Of a stretch of DNA of 64,000 nucleotides, positions 21,596 through 37,539 are shown piece after piece; the stretch's first letter is position 1; every line of letters starts with the position of its first letter. The stretch covers positions 558,001-622,000 of the forward strand of contig NZ_JAATJA010000002.1 of NCBI RefSeq assembly GCF_011927665.1, written 5' to 3'. Origin of the DNA: Desulfobaculum xiamenense (GTDB lineage Bacteria > Desulfobacterota > Desulfovibrionia > Desulfovibrionales > Desulfovibrionaceae). The notes under the pieces were generated by a model, which was not told where the DNA came from, did no database searches, and was given only the letters and a program-made list of their open reading frames with translations. Both the position numbers and the translations under genes were made by a program.

Positions 21596-21664
21596 CGTTG
21601 TGGGGTGTAGTGCTCAGCCGGTTGGTGCGGAGGGCGTGAGGGGATGGGCCGCTGCGTGGGGCTT

Positions 21665-21880
21665 GGCCTCCGGCGGCCGGGGCTTTGCCCCGGACCCCAG
21701 TCAAGGAAATGATTTCCTTGACAATCCTCACTAGGGCTTCGTTGTGCAAAGCCGCACGGCTCGCCAAGGGCAGATGGCCTGTCGCAAATCGGGGTTCCAA
21801 GGGGCCAGCGGCCCCTTGGCCGGCGGAGCCTACGTCTCGCACCCGTCAGTGAACGATACGGCCCGCCCACTGCGCCCCAC
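21665..21880 (+). repeat. hairpin-rich interspersed repeat, copy A
   Basis: About 215 bases, nearly identical to 22594-22810 and, inverted, to 33434-33633. It contains three palindromes: arms CCGGGGC/GCCCCGG (21677-21693, TTT loop), arms TCAAGGAAAT/ATTTCCTTGA (21701-21721, one-base centre) and arms CCAAGGGGCC/GGCCCCTTGG (21797-21819, AGC loop). It ends 20 bases from the stop of the yigZ-family gene and fills most of the gene-free stretch 21534-21900. No transposase or terminal target duplication is visible. Possible roles: REP/MITE-like element or structured terminator. Confidence 0.85.
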
Positions 21881-21900
21881 CGACACGCTCGGCCACAGCG

Positions 21901-22593: not shown

Positions 22594-22810
22594 GGCCTTC
22601 GGCGACCGGGGCTTTGCCCCGGACCCCAGTCAAGGAAATGATTTCCTTGACAATCCTCACTAGGGCTTCGTCGCTCAAAGCCGCACGGCTTGCCAAGGGC
22701 ACCCACGGTTATCGCATGTCGGGGTTCCAAGGGGCCAGCGGCCCCTTGGCCGGCGGAGCCTACGTCTTGCACCTGTCAGTGAACGATACGCCCCGCCACT
22801 GCGCCCACGA
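22594..22810 (+). repeat. hairpin-rich interspersed repeat, copy B
   Basis: Same orientation as copy A, with the same three palindromes. It differs mainly in the stretch between the second and third palindromes, where it is one base longer and of different sequence (around 22700-22720). Just past its right end a short internal duplication (GCCACTGCGCCCACG, from 22795 and again from 22834) is seen. It lies between the start of the yigZ-family gene and the start of the molybdopterin oxidoreductase gene. Confidence 0.85.
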
Positions 22811-22886
22811 ACGATACGCCCCAGCCACGCCCCGCCACTGCGCCCACGGCGCGGCGATGGCGCGAGGCTTTACGGAGGGCACCGCG

Positions 22887-24837: not shown

Positions 24838-26856
24838 TTAGACGCGAAGCGACGGGTCGCCCTCGCCGGTCTGCCGTGCGCCAAGTGGGAGGCGGATGAT
24901 GAAGGTGGCACCCTGCCCCGGCTCCGAGCGGACATGGAACTCGCCGCCGTGGTTCTGGGTGATGATGAAGTAGGAGACGGAAAGCCCGAGCCCCGTGCCA
25001 ACGCCGGGAGGCTTGGTGGTGTAGAACGGCTCGAAGATGCGTTTCTGGAGTGCCGCGTCCATGCCGGGACCGTTGTCCTGCACCTCGATGACGGCGTGTC
25101 CGTTCTCAAGGTAGGTCCGCAGGACAAGGTGGGGCTCGGCTTCGCCGGTGCCGTGCATGGCCATGGCCTGCGTGGCGTTGCGCAGGATGTTCAGCAGCAC
25201 CTGTTCGATCTCCGTGCGGATGCAGACTACCGACGGCATGTCCTGCGCCATCTCTCGTTCGATGATGATCTTTCGGAAATCGTACTTCTTCTTGAGATCG
25301 TAATCGTTGGCGGCGAGTTCGAGCGTATCGTCCACGATGGTCGCGAGGTCGTGCGGGCCCATGCGCGACTCGCTCTTGCGGCTGAAGTCGAGCATGTTGG
25401 AGACGATGCGCGCGGCGCGTTTGCCTGCGTCGCGCATGCCGGAAAGCATGCGCAGTATCTTTCGTTTATCGAGGTACTCGCGGACCTTGTCGAGGGAACA
25501 GCCCACCTCCTGCGCGGCGACGACATTGGCCGGGATGTCCGGCAGAAGCCGTCGTTCGATATTCTGCACGCCCTGAAGGATGACGCCGAGGGGGTTGTTG
25601 ATCTCGTGGGCCATGCCTGCGGCCAGTCCGCCGACGGAGAGCATCTTTTCGGTCTGGATCATCATCTCCTCAATGCGCACCCGCTCCGTCACGTCGTCCA
25701 TCCGTATCACCGCGCCGGACACGCCTTCCGCCATGAGCGGATAGACCGTGACGTCCTCGAAGCGGGTTTCACCATCCTTCTGGTGCGACAGGCGCTGCGT
25801 GACGAAGGGCGTTTTCTCGCGGATGGCGCGGGCCACATTGTCCATCTCGCGTCCGAGGCGTGGAAAGACCTCGGTGAGATGTCGGCCCTGCGCGTCGTGC
25901 GAGTTCAATCCCGTGGACGCTTGCGCGCGGAGATTCCATTGGCTGACCGTTCCATCGGGATTCACGCTCACGAGAATCGAGGGCATGGAGTCGAACACGT
26001 CGGCCAGGAGCCGCTGGAGGCGCAGGGCCTCCTCCTCGGCGCGCCGTCGCTCGGTTATCTCGTTTCGCAGGGCGGCGTTGCGCTCGCGCAGTTCACCGTT
26101 CTTGGCGTCGACCTCTCGATAGGTTGCCGAAAGTTCGGCGGACATCTCGTTGAAGGCCTTGCCCAGTTCCCCCACCTCGTCGCTACTTTTCGTCTTGACC
26201 CGCAGGTCGAGGTTGCCGCTGCGCATTTCGTTGAGCACGTCGCGAAGCGCGCGGATGGGGTCGATGATCATCCGTGACAGGCTCGCATTGAGCACGACGA
26301 GCATGGTGAGCAAAATGGCGAGGAACAGCCCGATGAAGACCTGTCGGGTGCGCAATTCCGCAAGTTCCACGGGGCCGAGGGCGTAGCGGATGGAGATGAA
26401 TCCGAGCTGCGTGCCGATGATTCGTATCTCGCGCGCGAAGACGAGGGTGCTCTGTCCGCCCCATGTCTCGTTACTGATGACGGCCTTTCCCTCCAGCCCA
26501 TGCATTTCGTCCGGCGAGAGTGGTGCAATCTGATCGAGGTTGGCTGTGGTGGTGCTGACGAGGGGTGAGCCTTGCGCGTCATGCACCTCGACCTCCAGTA
26601 CGCCGCGCACGTCGAGCATCCGATGGATGCGCAGTTCCAGCGCCCGAATGCGCCCCTCGAAGAGTTCATTGGATAGCGGCTCCAGATCACGCTGGACGAT
26701 GGTTTCAAGGAGCAGACGGATGTCGTCGATGGCCTTGGTCATGCGCGTGCGCTGCAAATCAGACAGCACAACCACGGCCACCGCGGCGATGAGCAGGAAC
26801 GTGGCGATGATGGCCACGTTGAGCTTGTGCTTGAGCGTCCACTGTCCGTTTGCCAT
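24838..26856 (-). CDS. membrane sensor histidine kinase linked to two binding proteins
   Basis: A 672-residue kinase. Helix 1 is about residues 12-32 and helix 2 about 175-195, enclosing a periplasmic region of about 140 residues without a recognisable domain. Then HAMP (RMIIDPIRALRDVLNEM), coiled coil, one PAS domain (about 300-410), dimerisation helix with the H-box GMAHEINNPLG, an unusual insertion around LLPDIPANVV to DKVREYLDK, and a HATPase domain (NILRNATQA, DNGPGMD, GTGLGLS). Its start is one base from the stop of the upstream binding-protein gene. No response regulator is adjacent. The binding protein probably delivers the signal to the periplasmic region. Confidence 0.85.
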   Translation of the reverse strand: MANGQWTLKHKLNVAIIATFLLIAAVAVVVLSDLQRTRMTKAIDDIRLLLETIVQRDLEPLSNELFEGRIRALELRIHRMLDVRGVLEVEVHDAQGSPLVSTTTANLDQIAPLSPDEMHGLEGKAVISNETWGGQSTLVFAREIRIIGTQLGFISIRYALGPVELAELRTRQVFIGLFLAILLTMLVVLNASLSRMIIDPIRALRDVLNEMRSGNLDLRVKTKSSDEVGELGKAFNEMSAELSATYREVDAKNGELRERNAALRNEITERRRAEEEALRLQRLLADVFDSMPSILVSVNPDGTVSQWNLRAQASTGLNSHDAQGRHLTEVFPRLGREMDNVARAIREKTPFVTQRLSHQKDGETRFEDVTVYPLMAEGVSGAVIRMDDVTERVRIEEMMIQTEKMLSVGGLAAGMAHEINNPLGVILQGVQNIERRLLPDIPANVVAAQEVGCSLDKVREYLDKRKILRMLSGMRDAGKRAARIVSNMLDFSRKSESRMGPHDLATIVDDTLELAANDYDLKKKYDFRKIIIEREMAQDMPSVVCIRTEIEQVLLNILRNATQAMAMHGTGEAEPHLVLRTYLENGHAVIEVQDNGPGMDAALQKRIFEPFYTTKPPGVGTGLGLSVSYFIITQNHGGEFHVRSEPGQGATFIIRLPLGARQTGEGDPSLRV

Positions 26857-26857
26857 G

Positions 26858-28009
26858 TTACTCCGTTCCTGCCTCGTAAGGCTGGACGATCCGGACGAAT
26901 TCTGGCCGATTGCCGTTCTGCCGGATAATCACGGCCTGCTTCGATGGATTCCCCTTGTCGTCGAAGGTGATGCGCCCGGTTACGCCGGGGTAGTCTCGCG
27001 TGGCGGCCAGAGCGTCGCGGATGGCCGAAGGCTCGCAACTGTTGGCCCTGCGCACCGCATCAGCAAAGAGTCCCACGGCGTCATAGCTGACCATGCTCGC
27101 CGGTGTGGCGTCTCCTTCCGTGTCCCCACTTTTTGCAGCATATCGTGCCAGAAAGGCGTGGCTTTCCGGTACGGGGCTGTCCCGGTGCCAGTGGGAGACG
27201 AAGTAACCGCGTCCCTTGAAACCCGCTTTGAAGACGGGGTAGTCGTTCAGCGATGACCACCCGTCGCCGCCCACGAAGACCGTATCCAAGCCGAGATTCT
27301 GCGCCTGCATGAGGATGAGGGCCGTATCACGCGAGTATCCCGGGAGAAATGCGATATCGGGGCGCAACTCCCGCATCGACAGGAGAAACCCACTGAAGTC
27401 AGTTGTGTCGAGAAGATATTCGCCACGCTGCACAACGTGCCCGCCTCCGGACTCGAAGCGTTTGATGAACGCAGCGGCGAGCCCGGGGCTGTAGGTGGTG
27501 CTGATATTGGTCAGTACGGATACGGAGCGCGCCTTCAGATCTTCCAGCGCGAAGGCGGCGATGACGCGTCCCTGGAAGGAATCGACGTATCCGGCGCGAA
27601 ATATGTAGTCGCCGGCCTCGGTTACCGCGTCTGCCGTTGAGGCGGCAGCGATCATCGGCACGCGTGCCCGCTGCAACACCTTTCCCATGGCTTGCGCGTG
27701 GGCGCTCCAGAACGGTCCCACCACGCAGCACACGCCATCGGCCACGGCCTGCGCCGCAGCCGCGCTGGAACCAAGGGATGAGCTTGCGTTGTCGTATTCG
27801 AGCAACACAACATTGCGCCCAAGCAATCCGCCACGTTCGTTGATCTCGTTAACGGCGTAACGGACCATTCGATAGTTGTGAATGTTCGCCTTGGCAGCCA
27901 ACCCGGTCTTGGCGAAAACGGCACCGAGGAGAATCGGCTCTGCGCAGAAGGCCGTGCCGGAATGCGCCAGAAGTAGCGCCATGGTGAGGATAAGGAGCGC
28001 GCGGATCAT
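26858..28009 (-). CDS. LivJ-type periplasmic substrate-binding protein (proximal to kinase)
   Basis: A 383-residue protein of the type I periplasmic binding fold (Peripla_BP_6). The signal peptide is residues 1-23 (ends TAFCA). Mature sequence begins EPILLGAVFAKTGLAAKAN, then RNVVLLEYDNASS, CVVGPFWSAHAQAMGKVLQ and SYDAVGLFADAVRRA, all standard for LivJ relatives. It is clearly paralogous to the next upstream gene (28136-29275). No permease or ATPase gene is nearby. ATG 28009 is preferred over 28018 because AGGGG is about 8 bases from it. Its stop is one base from the kinase start, so its likely role is signal delivery rather than transport. Confidence 0.85.
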   Translation of the reverse strand: MIRALLILTMALLLAHSGTAFCAEPILLGAVFAKTGLAAKANIHNYRMVRYAVNEINERGGLLGRNVVLLEYDNASSSLGSSAAAAQAVADGVCCVVGPFWSAHAQAMGKVLQRARVPMIAAASTADAVTEAGDYIFRAGYVDSFQGRVIAAFALEDLKARSVSVLTNISTTYSPGLAAAFIKRFESGGGHVVQRGEYLLDTTDFSGFLLSMRELRPDIAFLPGYSRDTALILMQAQNLGLDTVFVGGDGWSSLNDYPVFKAGFKGRGYFVSHWHRDSPVPESHAFLARYAAKSGDTEGDATPASMVSYDAVGLFADAVRRANSCEPSAIRDALAATRDYPGVTGRITFDDKGNPSKQAVIIRQNGNRPEFVRIVQPYEAGTE

Positions 28010-28135
28010 GTCGTTCATCCCCTTGCCCAATGATTCCCGGTTCACGGACCGCCCTGACGGGCTACGTTGGTGCGTTCCGTTCATCCATCATTCACGATGG
28101 CAACTCGGATGCCGAAAGCACGACGCATTCGAAGG

Positions 28136-29275
28136 TCATTTTCCCTCCGAATGCACCGTCTTCACGAACACCGTATCCTCGCCGACGATTTGCAGGATGA
28201 AGGCATCCTTGCGCGGATTGCGTTGCTCATCGAAACTGAACGTCCCCGTCGCTCCGCGAAAGCCATTCGTTGCGGCCAGCGCGTCGCGAATGCGCCTTGG
28301 CTCCGCACTGCCCGCCGCGCGCACGGCGGCGGCGAAAAGCTGTAAGGCATCATAGGCCAGCACATTCCCAGGAGATAATTCGGCCAGAACATCCGCCCCC
28401 GCCGCGCGCGAGAATTCTTCGACGAATGCGCGGCTCTCTGGGGTGGGTGCGTCCCTGTGCCAGTGCGTGACGTAATAGATGCTCGTCGAATTGCTCCATC
28501 CCAGAGGCATCCTGTTCATTGGCGACCACGAGTCCCCACCGAGGAAGGTCACCGCCAGATTCATGGAGCGGGCCTGCGTGATAGCCTGCCCCGTATCGTG
28601 CGGATACCCGGGAATGAAAACCACCTCCGCCTCGCGACGCACGACGTTTGCGAAAATTTCCTCGAAATTGCGTTCATCCGTCAGATACTCGGCCTGATAG
28701 ACCACGTCCCCACCGAGACCTGTGAAGGCTCGCTCGAATTCGGACGCGAGGCTCACGCTGTAGGCATTGCTGACGTTTACCAGCACTGCGGCGCGCTTGA
28801 AATGCAGATCCCGCCACGCGAATTCCGCCGCGCACACGCCTTGGAAGTCATCCAGGAAGCACGCCCGAAAGATGAAGTCGCCCACCTTGGTCACCTCCGG
28901 AGCCGTGGCGGTGGTGGCCATCATGGGAATGCCCGCTTTCTGCAACACCTGCGCAGCGGCAAGAGCATGTGAACTCCACGACGGTCCGATAACGAACGTC
29001 GCCCCCTGCGCCACGGCCGCCTCGGCAGCGGTTTTGGATGCGACGGTAATGCTCTTGTTGTCGAATTCCAGCAGTTCGACGGGCCTGCCAAGCAGCCCCC
29101 CATCGGCGTTGATTCGCTCCACCCCGAAACGCAGTACGTCGAAGCTCAAGGCGTTGCTGAGCGATGCCTCGCCGGTGGCCGCGAATATGGCCGCCACACG
29201 TATAGGCTCACTCGCATGGGCGACGCCCATGGAGAGGCATAGCAGTACTGCGGCAAGCCGGACCATCATGCGCAT
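28136..29275 (-). CDS. LivJ-type periplasmic substrate-binding protein (distal)
   Basis: A 379-residue exported binding protein, residues 1-22 being the signal peptide (ends GVAHA). Core motifs: EPIRVAAIFAATGEASLSN, RPVELLEFDNKS, FVIGPSWSSHALAAAQVLQ, FIPGYPHDTGQAITQAR and LAYDALQLFAAAVRAAG. It aligns over its whole length with the neighbour at 26858-28009 (roughly 40-45% identity by eye), including the shared HWHRD-x-P-x-PESxAF segment, so the pair arose by duplication. ATG 29275 follows GGGAG by 8 bases; two further in-frame ATGs occur at 29269 and 29266. First gene of the presumed three-gene sensory operon. Confidence 0.85.
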   Translation of the reverse strand: MRMMVRLAAVLLCLSMGVAHASEPIRVAAIFAATGEASLSNALSFDVLRFGVERINADGGLLGRPVELLEFDNKSITVASKTAAEAAVAQGATFVIGPSWSSHALAAAQVLQKAGIPMMATTATAPEVTKVGDFIFRACFLDDFQGVCAAEFAWRDLHFKRAAVLVNVSNAYSVSLASEFERAFTGLGGDVVYQAEYLTDERNFEEIFANVVRREAEVVFIPGYPHDTGQAITQARSMNLAVTFLGGDSWSPMNRMPLGWSNSTSIYYVTHWHRDAPTPESRAFVEEFSRAAGADVLAELSPGNVLAYDALQLFAAAVRAAGSAEPRRIRDALAATNGFRGATGTFSFDEQRNPRKDAFILQIVGEDTVFVKTVHSEGK

Positions 29276-29416: not shown

Positions 29417-29457
29417 AAAAAGGCCCCCGCCGCCGACCTTGCGGGCCGACGGCGGGG
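29417..29457 (-). terminator. terminator of the AOR operon
   Basis: Read on the minus strand, an 11-bp stem with one mismatch (29457-29447 with 29435-29425) followed by five T residues (29421-29417). It follows the outer-membrane protein gene ending at 29484. Confidence 0.75.
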
Positions 29458-29483: not shown

Positions 29484-30368
29484 CTAGAACGGTTTGGTAA
29501 TGGTGAGCACGCCCATGTCGCCCTTGGTGCAGTCCACGGCTTCGAATTCGTGGAGATAGCGCAGGCTCGCCTGCACGCCGAGGGTTTCGAACATGTAGCT
29601 GATTTCCGGGCCGACGGCGTAGGCCCTGTCGTGCACGTCGCGGTCCCACGTGGCACCGCTGCCGGAATCGTCCGTGACCTGCCAGTGGCAGTATCCGGCC
29701 AGCCCGACCTCAAGTGGGCCGAACTGCTTGCCGAGGCCCCATTCGAAGTGGAAGTCGTTGCCGTAGGTCACGTCCGTGGAGGTGTTCTCCGTGTGTACCT
29801 CGTAGCGCGGCAGGATGGAGAAGGACCACGTGCGCGCCTCGTCGAGGTACGCCGTGACGCCAAGCGAGAACATGTGCGTCCAGAAGTTCTTGCCCGGCGA
29901 GGCCGGATGCGAGCTGGACCAGTCGCCCGTGGGCAGGAACAGCTCGTAGCTGAAGGCCACGTCGAAGCGGTCCGTGTGCCACGCCAGCAGAACCGGCGTG
30001 AGGTCGATATCGCCGAGGCCGGAGCGCGTGTCGGCGTCGATGACGCTGTTGTCGAGGTGGGTGTACTTGAACGGAATGACGGCCTGCACGCCGTAGTCCG
30101 CGCCGAGCACCTTGTACCCGGTGATCCAGATGGGGCGCAGCGCCAGCGCGATGACGTCCACGTCAGGGTTGATGTCCACGCGGTTTCCGTCACGGTCGTT
30201 GACGCGGTCGGCGTTGTAGGCTGCCACATAGGTGCGCAGATAGTAGCCCGGCGGCGGCACGCTGGCGCATTTGATGCCTTCGAGTCCGTTGACGTAGTGC
30301 CCGTCGGCGGCAAATGCCGGTCCGACGGCGGCGAGAAGCAGGGCCAGCCCGAGAAGCAGTCGTTTCAT
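29484..30368 (-). CDS. outer-membrane beta-barrel protein, Phenol_MetA_deg/SphA-like
   Basis: A 294-residue protein with a signal peptide (residues 1-20, ends PAFAA) and alternating aromatic beta-strand pattern through to a C-terminal phenylalanine (TITKPF), as in outer-membrane barrels. Segments such as LRPIWITGYKVLGADYGVQAVIP, LGDIDLTPVLLAWH and AFSYELFLPTGDW fit the PF13557 family, often found with aromatic or hydrophobic compound catabolism. It is the third gene of an operon with an aldehyde oxidoreductase, 77 bases downstream, and may let the substrate cross the outer membrane. Function is inferred from family and context. Confidence 0.75.
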   Translation of the reverse strand: MKRLLLGLALLLAAVGPAFAADGHYVNGLEGIKCASVPPPGYYLRTYVAAYNADRVNDRDGNRVDINPDVDVIALALRPIWITGYKVLGADYGVQAVIPFKYTHLDNSVIDADTRSGLGDIDLTPVLLAWHTDRFDVAFSYELFLPTGDWSSSHPASPGKNFWTHMFSLGVTAYLDEARTWSFSILPRYEVHTENTSTDVTYGNDFHFEWGLGKQFGPLEVGLAGYCHWQVTDDSGSGATWDRDVHDRAYAVGPEISYMFETLGVQASLRYLHEFEAVDCTKGDMGVLTITKPF

Positions 30369-30445: not shown

Positions 30446-32422
30446 CTAGACGACCTTCAGCGCCGCGCCCATCTTGTCGGCCACGAATCCGAGGCCGAGC
30501 TTCTTCAGATGGCTTTTCTTGGGAATGCCGGTCTCGCGCTCCCAGCCGCGTTCGTCGTAGTAGGCGTCGAGAATTTTATTGAACTTCTCGGCGTCGATGG
30601 GCGGCAGCGGGATGGGGCCGACGGGATGCTGACCCGGGCAGGCCTCGTTCAGGCACTTCCAGTTGGGCTGGTCATCCTCGCGGCGGCAGCCGCGCATGAC
30701 GATGGTTGCCCGCTCGATCTGGTTGGAACGCTCGAAGATGGTGAACAGCTCGTCCACCGTGTACTTGATGCCGGTGGCGTAGTAGATGGCCTTGCACAAC
30801 TGGTCGTACATGTAGTCCAGCGCCTCGCCGCTGTCGTGCCAGAAGGCGAGGTGCCCGAAGTTGAACTTGCAGATGCCGAGGCTGTCCGACAGGAAGAACA
30901 TGTTCTCGTAGTAGCGCACCAGCCGGGCCTTGGCCTGCGGATGGTAGGAGCGCACGTCGCCAGCTTCCGCGTATCCGGCCACCTTGACCGCCACCGGGGG
31001 GATGTTGACCCATTCCGCCGTGGGCAGACCGTTGAGATGGTGCGAACCGCGCGGAGACACCGCGAACTGGAGCATGGAGCCGATGGTGGAGCGCGTTTCC
31101 ACGCCCGTGGCGCACATGCCCTTCTGGTGGTAGCAGGACTTCAGCGCCTCGGGTCCGATGCGCTTGCACACGCGCCACGGCCCGTCCGCCAGCTGATCGC
31201 CCACGCCCTTTCTGAAGACCACCATCGGCATCATCTCGACCATGGCGTCCGCATTGCCGAACTGCATGTCGATGCCGTCGAGGTACTCCTTGTCGATGAT
31301 TCGGCGCTCCATCAGCTCCATCAGCGTGGAGAACAGCGCGCCGCATTCCACGGTGTCCAGACCATAGTCGTTGCACATGGAATTGAGCTTGAGCACGGCC
31401 TTGTCGTCGCCGACGTCGCACTTGTGGCCAAGCGCCGTGGTGGTTTCGTACTCGGGACCACCGCCGCGCGTGGGGTACTTGCCGTCCTTCACGGCGTAGG
31501 CCGCGTGGCAGTGCACGGGACAGGTGAAGCAGGCTTCACGCCGGGTGCCGTGCTCGGTGCTCCACGCGCGCACCAGTCTGTCGAACTTCGGGTCGATGCC
31601 GCAGCGCTGCCAGTTGCGGATGGGCACCATGCCGGTGGTGCCGATGAGGTTGGTGATGCCCGGCGTGCCCCACTTGGACATGATCTGATACGTGGCGCTG
31701 TGGGCCTTGCCGAACTCGGGATTCATGAGGTCGTCGCGAAGCTGCTTGGTGACCTCGTAGAATTCCTTGGGCTTGAACAGCTTGACCGGCTTGGTGCCCT
31801 TGGCCACCACGGCCTTGAGGTTCTTGGAGCCGAACACCGCGCCCAGACCGCAGCGGCCCATGGAGTTGGTGGTCTCTGTGCGCACGTTGGCGAAGCGCAC
31901 GAGGTTTTCGCCGCCCTGACCGATGCACAGGAGCTTGGTCGGCTCGCCATGGCGGGCGATCAGTTCGGCCTGCGTGTCGATGGTGCCCTTGCCCCACAGA
32001 TCATCGGCGGGGAGGATGCTCACGGTGTCGTTCTCGACGTAGAGATACACGGGGCGCTTCGCACGGCCCGAGATGACCACCATGTCGAAGCCGCAGCGCT
32101 TGAGCGCGGGACCGAAATGCCCGCCGCAGTTGGAGTCGCCCCAGCCGGAGTAGTTCATGGGCGACAGGAAGCACGCATGGGTGCGCCCGGAGCTGGGAAA
32201 GGTCGTCCCGCTCAAGGGACCGGTGCCGATGTAGATGCGATTTTCGGGCGACAGCGGCTCCGTGCGGGCCACGTCCACTTCGCTGAACAGCAGGTAGTGC
32301 GCGAGGCACCGCCCGCCAAGCCAATCCTTATAATATTTCCGCGCGTCCTCGTAGGCGACGGATTCGTCCGTCAGGTCGATGCGCAGGATCGTCCCCATGT
32401 TTCCGTACACGTCCTTGTTCAT
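30446..32422 (-). CDS. aldehyde ferredoxin oxidoreductase family protein
   Basis: A 658-residue tungsten- or molybdenum-bis-pterin enzyme of the AOR family, which oxidises aldehydes (or reduces carboxylates). The N-terminal pterin domain reads GTILRIDLTDESV, GTGPLSGT and GRCGLGAVFGSKNLKAV; the [4Fe-4S] ligands are C298, C301 and C305 (CFTCPVHC) plus C518 in SLGICKF. No Tat or Sec signal is visible. The gene upstream encodes a Tat-exported Fe-S protein, so the enzyme could be cytoplasmic or carried out by its partner. The arrangement recalls E. coli YdhV with YdhX/YdhY. Physiological substrate unknown. Confidence 0.9.
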   Translation of the reverse strand: MNKDVYGNMGTILRIDLTDESVAYEDARKYYKDWLGGRCLAHYLLFSEVDVARTEPLSPENRIYIGTGPLSGTTFPSSGRTHACFLSPMNYSGWGDSNCGGHFGPALKRCGFDMVVISGRAKRPVYLYVENDTVSILPADDLWGKGTIDTQAELIARHGEPTKLLCIGQGGENLVRFANVRTETTNSMGRCGLGAVFGSKNLKAVVAKGTKPVKLFKPKEFYEVTKQLRDDLMNPEFGKAHSATYQIMSKWGTPGITNLIGTTGMVPIRNWQRCGIDPKFDRLVRAWSTEHGTRREACFTCPVHCHAAYAVKDGKYPTRGGGPEYETTTALGHKCDVGDDKAVLKLNSMCNDYGLDTVECGALFSTLMELMERRIIDKEYLDGIDMQFGNADAMVEMMPMVVFRKGVGDQLADGPWRVCKRIGPEALKSCYHQKGMCATGVETRSTIGSMLQFAVSPRGSHHLNGLPTAEWVNIPPVAVKVAGYAEAGDVRSYHPQAKARLVRYYENMFFLSDSLGICKFNFGHLAFWHDSGEALDYMYDQLCKAIYYATGIKYTVDELFTIFERSNQIERATIVMRGCRREDDQPNWKCLNEACPGQHPVGPIPLPPIDAEKFNKILDAYYDERGWERETGIPKKSHLKKLGLGFVADKMGAALKVV

Positions 32423-32446
32423 GTCCGAGTCTCCCTGCGTTGGCGG

Positions 32447-33112
32447 TTAGAGCTTGTGGAAGGTGATGGCCTGCGTGGGGCACCAGGCGACACACTGGGG
32501 ATCACCGCCGCACAGGTCGCACTTGATGGCCGTGCCGGTGGCTTCGCTCACGTGGATCATGCCGTACTGGCAGGCCTCGGCGCAGGTTCCGCAGCCCACG
32601 CACTTCTTCTCGTCCACCACGCGCGCGCCGGTCTTCGGGTCCACGAAGATGGCGTTCTCGGGGCAGGCGTCGAGACATTCGGGCGATTCGCACTGCCGAC
32701 AGAATTCGTTTTCGGAAAATTCGGCGAAGGTGGCCCGCGCCAGCGGCTGCGGCCAGCCCGGCGCGTTGGCGGACAGCGCGCTCACGCCGATGAAGTCCAG
32801 CACGGGCTTCATGGTGAAGCTGTTGCGGTGCGAGGTCGGGTCCGCGTGGCCCTCGTGGAACTGCGCGCAGGCGATTTCGCAGTAGGCGCAGCCCGCACAC
32901 TTGGCCGTATCGAACCGCAGTTCGTACATTGGGCCGGGAAGCTGGGCCTCATCGCCACCCGGACGTGCGGCAAAGGCCAGTGAACCGGTACTCTTCAGAT
33001 AGACGAGTCCGGCCGCGAAACCACCGGCCGCCCGGCCGGCGGTCAGCAGGAATCCACGGCGCGACAGGCCTTTTTCGCCAGTTTTCGGTGTCTCGTTGCG
33101 GGAGTTCTTCAT
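32447..33112 (-). CDS. Tat-exported ferredoxin-like protein with four [4Fe-4S] clusters
   Basis: A 221-residue electron-transfer subunit. A twin-arginine signal is clear (LSRRGFLLTAG, residues 16-26, then a hydrophobic stretch to about 48). Sixteen cysteines form four cluster motifs: C72-x2-C-x2-C-x3-C, then CRQCESPECLDACP, CVGCGTCAEAC and CDLCGGDPQCVAWCP, the HybA/DmsB pattern. It should carry electrons for the aldehyde oxidoreductase encoded 25 bases downstream. AAGGAGG lies 6 bases before ATG 33112, ruling out a longer upstream frame. First gene of the operon; a sigma-54-like promoter lies at 33179-33194. Confidence 0.9.
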   Translation of the reverse strand: MKNSRNETPKTGEKGLSRRGFLLTAGRAAGGFAAGLVYLKSTGSLAFAARPGGDEAQLPGPMYELRFDTAKCAGCAYCEIACAQFHEGHADPTSHRNSFTMKPVLDFIGVSALSANAPGWPQPLARATFAEFSENEFCRQCESPECLDACPENAIFVDPKTGARVVDEKKCVGCGTCAEACQYGMIHVSEATGTAIKCDLCGGDPQCVAWCPTQAITFHKL

Positions 33113-33178
33113 CCGTTCCTCCTTGGCGGGTCTCTTGCGTTTTCGGGCAGATACATCTCCGCGCGACACTTTACTTAT

Positions 33179-33194
33179 TGGAAGAACCATGCCA
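33179..33194 (-). promoter_or_regulatory. near-consensus sigma-54 promoter for the AOR operon
   Basis: On the minus strand TGGCATGGTTCTTCCA matches TGGCACG-N4-TTGCA except for C to T in the -24 box and G to C in the -12 box. It lies 67 bases upstream of ATG 33112 and downstream of two palindromes. The -12 mismatch makes it a candidate only. Confidence 0.4.
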
Positions 33195-33274
33195 GCCCCA
33201 CCATGTGCCACTCCACCCCCGTCAGTAGCCAATTTTCTGGAGCCTTCGGCATACGGTCGCCAACGCGCGACTAT

Positions 33275-33355
33275 GCCATTCGGAATGGCCGAACGCCGCG
33301 AGAATCGCAGAACGCTCGGTGTGGCGGGGCGATTGGGGAGTATTCCAAAGGGAAT
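33275..33355 (-). promoter_or_regulatory. two palindromic sites upstream of the AOR operon (candidate activator sites)
   Basis: Site 1: GCCATTC-N-GAATGGC at 33275-33289, a perfect 7-bp inverted repeat. Site 2: ATTCC-N4-GGAAT at 33342-33355, which shares the GCCATTCC half-site when read on the minus strand (to 33358). They sit about 80 and 150 bases upstream of the candidate sigma-54 promoter, the normal position for enhancer sites of an NtrC-type regulator; the regulator gene at 33653 is immediately upstream. Binding is inferred. Confidence 0.5.
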
Positions 33356-33433
33356 GGCATGCCTGCGGTTATGGCTGGGTGGGCGGGGTGCTGTGGAACT
33401 GTGTGCGGGGCGTGTCGCGGTGGTGCGGTGTGC

Positions 33434-33633
33434 GGGGCGTATCGTTCATGGACGCATGCAAGACGTAGGCTCTGCCGGCCAAGGGGCCGCTGGCCCCCTG
33501 GACCCCCGACATGCGACAGGCCGTCTGCCCTTGGCGGGCCGTACGGCTTTTAGCGACGAAGCCCTATTGAGGATTGTCAAGGAAATCATTTCCTTGACTG
33601 GGGTCCGGGGCAAAGCCCCGGCCGCCGGAGGCC
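33434..33633 (-). repeat. hairpin-rich interspersed repeat, copy C (inverted)
   Basis: Reverse-complement copy of the elements at 21665-21880 and 22594-22810, with the same three palindromes in the same order (third palindrome 33475-33500 less perfect). It lies just 20 bases beyond the stop of the NtrC-type regulator gene and fills half of the gene-free stretch 33113-33652, upstream of the AOR operon. Confidence 0.85.
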
Positions 33634-33652
33634 ATATCTCCGCGCCGCAGGC

Positions 33653-35065
<1,413 letters not shown>

Positions 35066-35068
35066 GGG

Positions 35069-37186
35069 CTACTCCTCGGGGGGCATGAGGGGCAGGGTGA
35101 GGGCGGCCACGGTTCCCCTGCCGGGTTCGGAGGTGAATTCCAGCGTTCCGTCGTGTTCCTGCACGATCTTCTGCGAGACGGAGAGGCCGAGCCCCGTGCC
35201 GCCGATGTCGCGCTTGGTGGTGAAGAAGGGGTCCATGATGTGCTGCATGTCCTGCTGCGTTATGCCCGTGCCCTCGTCGCGCACGAGGACGGTGACCCTC
35301 GCTGGATCGGCGAGGGTGATTGCCTCCACAGCCACGGAGTGGGACTTGTCCGGCAGGGCCTCGCAGGCGTTCTGCACGAGGTTGATGATGACCTGCTCGA
35401 TTTTCTGGTAGTTGCCGCGCACGCGGGGTCGCGTCTTTTCGAAGGCGATGGAGAAGTGGTCTGTGGATTTGCGAATCTGGTTACCGAGCAGGTTCAGCGA
35501 GTGCTTGATGACCGAATTGACGTGCACGGTCTGGCTCATGTCCGTTGAGTCGTGGCGGGCGTAGTCCTTGAGGTCCTGCACGATGCGTTTGATGCGTGCG
35601 GAGCCTTCGAGGACGCTGTCGAAGAGTCCGGGGATGCGGGTGCGGGCGTGGGAGTAGCGCAGGCCGCCGATGAGGAAGTCTCCGTGTTCCTCGTGGTAGC
35701 GCTCCAGTACGGGGGCGGCGTCGTGCCACATGCGCGAGAGGAGCTGCGTGTTGAGCATGATGTAGTTGTTGGGATTGTTCACCTCGTGCGCCACGCCGGA
35801 GACGAGGATGCCAAGCGAAACCATCTTGCCCGCGTGGATGAGCTGCTCGTGCTTGAGCCGCGCCTCGCGTTCGGCGAGGGATTTCTCGGTGATGTCGCGG
35901 CAGGTGATGAGTACTGTGCCGTTCTGAATGTTCACGCGCTTCACGTTGACCATGAGCTCGTGCGGGCCGCCCTGCCTGTCGGTGAGGGACAGCTCGATGT
36001 TGCGGATTTCGCCGCGCGCCTCCAGCTCTGCGAGGTCGAAGAAGCCGCGCCCCAGAAGCTCGTGGATGTTGCCGAGCCACCACACCTCCTCCTCGGTGAG
36101 GCAGAACACGCCTTCCACGCTGGGGCTGACGTAGTGAAAGTTGCCGTCGTCGTCGGTGATGAACACGGCGTCGGAGATGCTGGCCAGCGTGATGCGGTGG
36201 AGTTCCTCGGAGTATTGCAGGGCCTGCACCCACTGCCGATAGTCCGTGATGTTCTTGTAGCTTATGACCATGCCCACCTGTGTGCCGCTCGATTCCTTGA
36301 GCTTGGTGGCGGTGACGGCGCAGGCCACGCGTTCGCCGGTGGCGGAGATGCACTCCGTCTCGTAGTCCACGCGGTTGCGGCCCTTGAGGCGGGTGGCGGC
36401 TCGGCAGCGCTTGCGGTCGCAGTTCTCGCAGGGAAATATCTCGAAGCACTTACGCGCGTGGACCTCTTCGGCGCGGTAGCCGGAGAGTTCCAGAAAGGCC
36501 CGGTTGATCTTGAGGATGTTCTTGTGTGAGTCGGTGACGATGAGCCCGTCGGTGGAGGTTTCAAAGACCTGATTGAGTTCGAGGTCCGCCCGTTCGAGGT
36601 CAGCCTCTACCTGCGCCCGGTAGGAGCGCTCGTCCTTGAGCAGGTCGTGGGAGCTGTGCAGTTCGCGGGTGCGCGCTTCGAGGATGTGCTCCATGCGGTC
36701 GAAGAGGATGGTCCGCTCGCGTTCTTTGCGTAGCTCGTCGGTGATGTCGCGCACGGTGGCGACGACGTAGTCCGTGTCGTTGATGGACACGGCCTTGAGG
36801 AAGACCTCGGTGTCGGTGAGGGTGCCGTCGCCGCGCAGGTCCTTCCAGTAGAAGCGCTGGGGCGCACCCTTTAGGGCCGCCTGTATCTTCTCGTGGGCCA
36901 TGCCGACGGATTCGCGGCCGTTTGGCTGAAAGGGCGGGGCGAACTTCTCCGGGGAATAGCCGATGATGTCGCCTTTTTCGCATTTCCAGATGCGGCAGGC
37001 GCTCTGGTTGCATTTCGTGAAGGTTTCCTGCATGAGCAGGATGCCGTCGGCCATGCCTTCAAGCACGGCGCGGTAGATGACGAGTTCGCGCTCAAGGTCT
37101 TCGCCCGTGTCGCGCAGGGCGGCATTTTCCTGTTCGAGCCGGGCAATCCTGTCTGTGAGTGCCCGGATTTCGCCTGCGGGGTCCAT
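35069..37186 (-). CDS. cytoplasmic multi-PAS sensor histidine kinase with Cys-rich PAS
   Basis: A 705-residue soluble kinase with no membrane helix. A short N-terminal coiled coil (EIRALTDRIARLEQENAAL) is followed by three PAS domains (about 33-150, 190-310 and 318-435), a dimerisation helix with His467 (SGVAHEVNNPNN) and a HATPase domain (NLVQNACEAL, DEGTGI, GTGLGLS). PAS2 has a cysteine cluster C247-x5-C253-x2-C256-x4-C261 (CFEIFPCENCDRKRC), which could bind Fe-S or sense redox state. GGAGG 8 bases upstream fixes the start at 37186. It pairs with the NtrC-type regulator 3 bases downstream. Confidence 0.88.
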   Translation of the reverse strand: MDPAGEIRALTDRIARLEQENAALRDTGEDLERELVIYRAVLEGMADGILLMQETFTKCNQSACRIWKCEKGDIIGYSPEKFAPPFQPNGRESVGMAHEKIQAALKGAPQRFYWKDLRGDGTLTDTEVFLKAVSINDTDYVVATVRDITDELRKERERTILFDRMEHILEARTRELHSSHDLLKDERSYRAQVEADLERADLELNQVFETSTDGLIVTDSHKNILKINRAFLELSGYRAEEVHARKCFEIFPCENCDRKRCRAATRLKGRNRVDYETECISATGERVACAVTATKLKESSGTQVGMVISYKNITDYRQWVQALQYSEELHRITLASISDAVFITDDDGNFHYVSPSVEGVFCLTEEEVWWLGNIHELLGRGFFDLAELEARGEIRNIELSLTDRQGGPHELMVNVKRVNIQNGTVLITCRDITEKSLAEREARLKHEQLIHAGKMVSLGILVSGVAHEVNNPNNYIMLNTQLLSRMWHDAAPVLERYHEEHGDFLIGGLRYSHARTRIPGLFDSVLEGSARIKRIVQDLKDYARHDSTDMSQTVHVNSVIKHSLNLLGNQIRKSTDHFSIAFEKTRPRVRGNYQKIEQVIINLVQNACEALPDKSHSVAVEAITLADPARVTVLVRDEGTGITQQDMQHIMDPFFTTKRDIGGTGLGLSVSQKIVQEHDGTLEFTSEPGRGTVAALTLPLMPPEE

Positions 37187-37539
37187 CGCGGTGCCTCCGG
37201 TAGCGGTTGGGAAACATGATTCCCATACATCCTGAATGGATGTAAGCGCAAGCAGGCTGACACTTTTCATGCTTTGACACCGGGGAGACTGTGGTGTGGG
37301 GATGAGGCTGGCGTGCCGCGTGCCGCGCCCCCCGTGCGGTCGGTCCGGGAAATTTTCGAAGGAATGCGGCCGTGTGCGCGTGGGGAATTTCCGCAACACA
37401 CCGGCATGACGGCACTCCCCCCCCGACGGCCCAGCCGGGAACCTCTGGCGCTTGGCGTTTGTTGCCGACGGCGTTTTCTGGTACCCCCTACGCGTACACC
37501 AACCCGAACGACCCCAACCCGTCAGGGATACGCATACCC
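37187..37539. other. divergent intergenic region between PAS kinase and dnaE
   Basis: No gene is supported in these 353 bases. Two palindromes lie 20-60 bases upstream of the kinase start: GGGAA-N6-TTCCC (37209-37224) and ACATCC-N5-GGATGT (37227-37243). They could be operator sites for kinase/regulator expression. The dnaE side shows no clear promoter; AGGGA at 37524-37528 may serve as its ribosome site. Confidence 0.4.

Follow-up and report, generated by a model that had tools for sequence, protein, structure and literature searches.

The question raised by the locus described here is what two LivJ-type substrate-binding proteins (SBPs) do when they are encoded, with no transporter gene beside them, immediately ahead of a membrane histidine kinase. 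The locus lies in a 64,000-nucleotide stretch of the 3.64 Mb genome of Desulfobaculum xiamenense, a bacterium of sulfate-reducer type (contig NZ_JAATJA010000002.1, positions 558,001 to 622,000), hereafter the window, in which the coordinates below are counted. SBP1, SBP2 and the kinase follow one another in this order on the minus strand, with a single base (26857) between the TAA stop codon of SBP2 and the ATG of the kinase. We consider it likely that the three proteins form the ligand-sensing input module of a two-component system, in which ligand-loaded SBPs dock on the sensor domain and set the activity of the kinase, so that it receives two inputs. The parts of the proposed module are as follows.

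28136..29275, minus strand: SBP1, exported LivJ-type (Peripla_BP_6) binding protein, 379 aa; AGGGAGAAG stands upstream of its start
26858..28084, minus strand: SBP2, exported binding protein of LivJ type, 408 aa as opened or, from the probable start at 28018, 386 aa
24838..26856, minus strand: sensor histidine kinase, 672 aa, TM-Cache-TM-HAMP-PAS-HisKA-HATPase (TM, transmembrane segment), without receiver
26341..26760, minus strand: periplasmic sensor domain of the kinase (residues 33-172), PAS/Cache-like by its model, the presumed docking surface for the SBPs
24883..25629, minus strand: HisKA and HATPase region (residues 410-658) with the phosphoacceptor motif MAHEINNPLG

The first-pass annotation, made from the sequence alone, had described two exported, mutually duplicate type I binding proteins followed one base on by a membrane kinase, and this description was borne out. 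SBP1 and SBP2 share 44% identity over 362 columns, both match Peripla_BP_6 with an E-value of about 1e-49 (169.8 and 167.7 bits; cut-off 31.7), and a signal-peptide-like N-terminal stretch can be read from the sequence of each. For SBP2 the ATG at 28018 is the likelier start because it is preceded by GGGCAAGGGG, and no such sequence is found before 28084. The SBP2 model (pLDDT 92.5) matches LivK (3td9, Z 48.2, root-mean-square deviation (rmsd) 2.0, 348 aligned residues) and LivJ (4gnr, Z 47.0). The residues S127, S149/T150 (A/T in SBP1), D168, Y198 and D274, which we take to be the equivalents of the LivJ amino-acid site, are retained in both window SBPs and in the paralogues A and B described below. 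Judged from these sequences, the two SBPs may bind two amino-acid-like ligands that differ from each other. In the available text of PMC9602780, Peripla_BP_6 proteins are mostly predicted to bind branched-chain amino acids, and members that stimulate receptors are reported in 13 of 22 SBP families. The statement that no ABC permease or ATPase gene adjoins the three genes also held: no permease or Liv-type ABC gene was matched across 19.9 kb around them, and thus no LivHMGF set is adjacent.

The kinase has, by hydropathy, a transmembrane segment at residues 14-32, a periplasmic part of 140 residues (33-172) and a second transmembrane segment at 173-191, followed by matches to HAMP, PAS, HisKA and HATPase; no receiver was matched. 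The periplasmic part had been called unassigned, which stands for the window's own sensor domain, since it gave no Pfam match besides HAMP, and stands less well for its relatives: among 37 such sequences, 17 align with SMP_2 at E <= 1 (best E-value 6.6e-8) and six with ArlS_N (best 3.5e-5). The structural model (pLDDT 91.5, pTM 0.76) consists of a long helix, a second helix and five strands in a single PAS/Cache-like domain. The integrative WalK-YycH model 9a5d heads the structure matches (Z 16.4), and the closest crystal structure is the extracellular domain of WalK (4ywz_B, Z 15.7, rmsd 2.2, 136 aligned residues, 10% identity), followed by KinD (4jgq_B, 14.9) and CitA (8biy_A, 13.4). We know of no SBP partner of WalK. 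LuxQ, TorS and LytS are not among the structure matches listed for the model, which does not exclude their membership in the same sensor family. The pair N63-E64, by the turn of the two helices, is nearly invariant among the sensors and is a candidate docking site. Residues 353-505 of PDB 5ere, an 'extracellular ligand binding receptor' of Desulfohalobium, also align with the sensor model (Z 13.0), and this protein might be a flytrap-Cache fusion; its residues 322-562 are tabulated as dCache in the available part of PMC8694187. Its N-terminal part does not appear among the structure matches listed, and for this reason we did not use it as evidence.

A survey of genomes for the binding-protein/kinase gene order, which the first-pass annotation had proposed, shows that the order recurs. 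A scan of GTDB genomes with a 10-row SBP alignment, all rows of which came from sensor-linked loci, gave 182 relatives, and the best 80 were classified by purpose-built hidden Markov models for the sensor domain and for permease or Liv-type ABC genes. Sensor domains were found in 38 of these loci, permease or Liv-type ABC genes in 27, neither in 15 and both in none. The proposal would have been refuted if orthologous binding proteins were normally encoded with LivHMGF-type genes; it was not refuted, as no locus has both partners and the branch of the SBP tree that holds the window SBPs (see below) has no transport-linked row. Seven of the 15 loci with neither end within 350 bases of the SBP, and in L123, also of the 15, a hybrid kinase is encoded upstream. 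The SBP is the direct upstream neighbor of the sensor in 37 of the 38 sensor loci, with both genes on one strand and at most 355 bases apart; in the remaining one (L133) the SBPs come after the sensor. Thirty-one sensor loci belong to Thermodesulfobacteriota, three are labelled Myxococcota, two Pseudomonadota and one Nitrospirota, and one has no label; 21 of the 27 transport loci are from Verrucomicrobiota.

The order was also met when the search started from the sensor. With the window sensor as query, 99 genomes gave 12 matches (E <= 1e-8), among them the window's own, and the SBP is directly upstream in nine; the rest are one at a contig end (G091) and two (G026, G082) to which we return below. 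A profile of the 37 sensors, run against 395 genomes of the phylum, picked out ten genomes at 216 bits or more, with the next at 83 or less, and the SBP is directly upstream in nine of the ten; G349 shows only part of the SBP. This second search is not independent because the profile was built from SBP-linked loci: among the ten, G000 is the window's genome and G065 (locus L166) had supplied a profile row, and locus L140 corresponds to G033. No fusion of SBP and sensor in one frame was flagged among the 80 loci. A model of SBP and kinase as a single readthrough chain was set aside, since the join would lie at the cytoplasmic end.

What stands behind the sensor varies. A kinase core is present in 33 of the 38 sensor loci, a SpoIIE phosphatase in two (L147, L157) and a GGDEF domain in one (L122), and the other two (L127, L143) are cut by a contig end; the kinases are plain in L087, L090, L092 and L093 and hybrid, with receiver and Hpt, in L086, L088 and L094-L097. 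The SBP-sensor order persists across kinase, SpoIIE and GGDEF outputs, which links the SBP with the sensor domain and not with the output; we take this constancy to be the best indirect sign that SBP and sensor belong together. The sensor-SpoIIE fusions (L147:8260-10272 and L157:1386-3344) come from two Desulfobacterales loci, and the GGDEF protein of Desulforhopalus vacuolatus (L122:4513-10855) is preceded by four closely similar tandem LivJ-type SBP genes.

The sensor-linked SBPs are also set apart from transport SBPs in phylogeny. In a quick IQ-TREE of 136 SBP rows with SH-aLRT support, rooted weakly (77) on three long rows, one branch (support 100, length 0.38) holds 77 rows, namely all 68 SBPs of sensor loci and nine from loci with neither partner, and no transport row; all 43 transport-linked rows are on its opposite side. 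Because rows with neither partner sit inside the branch, the label 'kinase' costs nine changes on this tree. W126 occurs in 63 of 68 sensor-linked rows and W299 in all 68, versus none of the 43 transport rows for either. Transport rows typically have E at 132 (37 of 43, versus 1 of 68) and Y at 251 (42 of 43, versus 1 of 68). In 28 neighbouring SBPs outside the picks of the scan, W126 is present in 25 and W299 in 28. From these sequences the sensor-linked SBPs would be kin of LivJ-type transport proteins that form a branch of their own and are paired with a sensor domain instead of a permease.

The reading of SBP1, SBP2 and the kinase as one sensory module stands on the gene order and its recurrence, also with differing outputs, on the split from transport SBPs, on the retained site residues and on the folds modelled for SBP and sensor. 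Docking and the direction of the signal would then run as follows. The exported SBP1 and SBP2 would trap small amino-acid-like ligands in their interlobe clefts. They would dock on the one PAS/Cache domain that the kinase has, and this sensor domain would relay the change through the second transmembrane segment and HAMP to the PAS-HisKA-HATPase core. Two SBPs per kinase would provide two inputs, akin to LivJ and LivK on one permease.

The number of SBPs ahead of a sensor bears directly on this last point. Directly upstream of the sensor there is one SBP in 12 of the 38 loci, two in 23, three in one, four in one and none in one, with broken SBP genes (L136, L147) counted once each and with 'one' being a lower bound in L141 and L157, where the contig starts just before the SBP. 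Two SBPs are thus the most frequent state (23 of 37). Old paralogues, A and B, are present in at least 17 loci, in the order A then B in 15, which include L139, a locus that lies at a contig end and has neither partner, and B then A in L144 and L159. The window pair comes from a separate duplication on the A-like side: both SBPs fall in a 7-row set (support 99) that also contains the one-SBP loci L120 and L141 (Desulfomicrobium), L121 (Salidesulfovibrio) and L137 (Desulfofustis) and the lone SBP of L167. Further duplications within a locus were found in L119, L122, L134, L135 and L161, and the two-SBP state arose repeatedly. Tandem SBPs are present in the transport group too, and for this reason the tandem habit may be a property of the SBP family, LivJ and LivK being a case in point.

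The paralogues offer a comparison of how closely each SBP follows the sensor. Among 14 loci with A, B, sensor and kinase core (two of 16 were dropped for want of a core), the correlation with sensor distances is 0.82 for SBP-B and 0.51 for SBP-A; given the kinase core it is 0.69 (p 0.0002) and 0.30 (p 0.017), and given the other SBP it is 0.75 (p 0.0002) and 0.09 (p 0.24), respectively. These sequence distances lean towards B as the main sensor contact. They also speak for an explanation in which SBP2, the neighbor of the kinase, is the only SBP that docks, and SBP1 acts as a ligand sink or as an antagonist in competition for ligand or docking site: B, the better follower, adjoins the sensor in 12 of the 14 loci, and modules with one SBP are frequent (12 of 37). 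However, the ligand residues are retained in both window SBPs, A is the one that adjoins the sensor in L144 and L159, and the A/B correlation need not transfer to the window pair because that pair is a separate A-side duplication. We regard docking by SBP2 only as unlikely, though it deserves to be taken seriously.

According to another explanation, the SBPs are orphan transport proteins that feed a distant Liv-type permease, the kinase senses directly through its own Cache domain, and co-expression is all that links the genes. The genome does contain two Liv-type permease loci, the Cache fold resembles that of direct-binding sensors such as CitA, and some sensor relatives occur without an SBP. 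Against this, each Liv locus has its own SBP, and the window SBPs lie in the branch free of transport rows and lack E132 and Y251. The genome has eight Peripla_BP_6 genes, of which two (C1:1146641, C4:196415) are with Liv permease and ABC genes, five (the window pair, C1:11076, C3:143671 and C1:164634) adjoin signaling proteins and have no Liv permease or ABC matches, and the eighth (C5:117305) encodes a 743-residue protein with a partial match. Of seven PF02653 matches, four are those of the Liv loci, two (the pair at C2:1076 kb) adjoin an SBP that by eye is of another kind, and the seventh is C1:857033. On this evidence orphan transport is quite improbable. That SBP1 and SBP2 are redundant copies for the same ligand kept for dosage, as might be suggested by Desulforhopalus, where recent multiplication has left four closely similar SBPs ahead of a single sensor protein, is likewise improbable given the 44% identity of the window pair and the consistent differences between A and B near the ligand site (250, 252, 253, 300).

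LivJ-type proteins seem to sit in several signaling units of this genome, probably through separate events. At C1:164634 the SBP gene is followed by a hybrid kinase. In the C1:11076 region (L104:9421-13499) a LivJ-type SBP is encoded ahead of an sCache_3_2 histidine kinase and a REC-STAS regulator, and L099 and L101 of relatives have a similar SBP-like frame, kinase and regulator. At C3:143671 a LivJ-type SBP precedes an sCache-HAMP-PAS-GGDEF-EAL protein; in L105 (6670-10850) a LivJ-type SBP gene adjoins a protein of this architecture, and the two might form a cyclic-di-GMP switch under SBP control.

Several observations weigh against the view that SBP1, SBP2 and the kinase act together. Sensor relatives in G026, G082 and G371 have no SBP of the branch directly upstream, and in G082 a divergent Liv-type transport set begins about 1.1 kb from the sensor; conversely, branch SBPs in L146, L149 and L167 have no sensor nearby. 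The module is patchy, with no match in the only other genome of the genus that was searched. The scan pattern demanded the W299 motif, so that the rows it picked carry W299 by choice, and the marker residues partly amount to one split of the tree and may reflect descent rather than function. Nor is the distance correlation specific: given the sensor, SBP-B follows the kinase core too (0.49, p 0.0006), which means that shared descent has not been removed from it, and SBP-A contributes nothing once B is accounted for. Finally, gene neighborhood does not prove an interaction: according to the available text of PMC11113362, three Pseudomonas aeruginosa SBPs encoded near the kinases AgtS and AruS did not interact with the sensor domains that were tested.

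By the following element, the three genes appear to form a transcription unit of their own.

29425..29457, minus strand: intrinsic-terminator-like hairpin, 14 pairs and a T-rich tail, between a barrel gene (29484-30368) and SBP1

The scanned 5.9 kb contain four terminator-like sites where 3.9 are expected by chance, and this hairpin has the longest stem among them. The sigma-54 promoter pattern gave 35 matches (52 expected by chance) and the sigma-70 pattern none. To the first-pass statement that no response regulator is adjacent, one addition can be made: a regulator of sigma-54 type is encoded on the same strand, 4.4 kb upstream (33653-35065). It adjoins another kinase (35069-37399), whose phosphoacceptor region is 29% identical to that of the window kinase; with a kinase of its own, it was dropped as a partner. 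Relatives of the window's neighbors, searched for in the 38 sensor loci and L167, were found once for the Fe-S gene (L135) and five times for the regulator (L153, L128, L166, L156, L125), and no match was found there for the oxidoreductase and barrel genes; no pathway was deduced from these neighbors. The genes at 30446-37399, all on one strand, encode an aldehyde ferredoxin oxidoreductase, an Fe-S protein and the sigma-54-type regulator with its PAS kinase, and might form a regulated unit for aldehyde oxidation. A dispersed repeat, about 200-235 bases long and 82-88% identical between copies, occurs at seven places in the DNA inspected, among them 21664-21898, 22594-22822 and 33399-33634 of the window and also L103 and L105.

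The kinase core is itself among at least 14 similar cores in the genome (20 of 125 candidates were scored). In 12 of 13 other kinase loci (L237-L249) the phosphoacceptor region is 58-72% identical to the window's, and these kinases differ in their N-terminal parts and mostly have no adjoining regulator. Receivers adjoin the kinase in L238 and L239, lie on the opposite strand in L245 and L249, and in L244 belong to the regulator of the C1:11076 unit; for eight of the 13 loci no receiver was matched in the fetched 10 kb, and the attempt to name the cognate regulator in this way failed. It is possible that the window kinase uses a shared, unlinked response regulator.

Among known systems, LuxP is a ribose-type protein that works as the only SBP of LuxQ, whose sensor has tandem domains, and TorT and XylFII belong to other SBP families, with one SBP each; the window module differs from LuxP-LuxQ of Vibrio in having two LivJ-type SBPs and one Cache domain. 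AmiC, which is cytoplasmic and acts on the antiterminator AmiR in Pseudomonas, is a precedent for the LivJ-type fold in regulation (1pea, Z 39.4 to the SBP2 model). LivJ/LivK with LivHMGF share the SBP family and the arrangement of two SBPs per membrane partner, but their partner is a transporter. The parallels drawn at first pass with TorT-TorS and LuxP-LuxQ fit in kind; the window sensor is modeled as one PAS/Cache domain. In LuxP-LuxQ a periplasmic binding protein acts on a membrane kinase with a Cache-like periplasmic part (available parts of PMC6321045 and PMC8694187), and complexes of this kind, in which the SBP acts on the periplasmic domain of the kinase, are also known and solved for TorT-TorS (3O1H) and XylFII-LytS (5XSJ), as described in the available part of PMC6321045. 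The same source gives AibA/AibB-TlpB of Helicobacter as two binding proteins for one receptor, but TlpB is a chemoreceptor. As would be expected of SBP-activated kinases of the LuxPQ, TorTS and XylFII-LytS class, the SBP gene lies beside the kinase gene in the window, and 10 of 11 characterized SBP-kinase pairs are genome neighbors by the text available from PMC11113362. The claim of an undescribed sensory system is correct insofar as no module like that of the window was recognized in the open-licence literature searched, but SBP-activated kinases are known as a class (PMC11113362 and PMC6321045, as far as available), and the first-pass interpretation as a whole is partly supported.

It is tempting to go further and to imagine a widespread bacterial two-flytrap receptor, in which two diverged LivJ-type proteins sit on one Cache-sensor dimer, B, mostly encoded beside the sensor, docking and A modulating, possibly as an A-B heterodimer, with kinase, phosphatase and diguanylate cyclase as interchangeable outputs and with the permease swapped for a sensor. 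We hold this to be decidedly improbable. Metabotropic glutamate receptor (mGluR) chains are among the structure matches, class C G-protein-coupled receptors having flytrap domains that share the SBP fold, and such a receptor, if real, would be a bacterial counterpart of class C heterodimers.

For most sensor kinases the signal is unknown, and activation through SBPs is considered widespread but difficult to detect (PMC11113362 and PMC9602780, in the parts available). The locus adds what seems to be a whole branch of LivJ-type proteins dedicated to sensors and separated from transport proteins, with W126 and W299 as markers. Because this branch appears sensor-dedicated and has its own markers, an automatic name like 'branched-chain amino acid ABC transporter substrate-binding protein' is probably misleading for its members. 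As two SBPs are repeatedly paired with one sensor, the integration of signals by a single receptor can be tested, and the recurrence of the arrangement in many relatives suggests that nutrient-uptake proteins have been converted into sensory apparatus.

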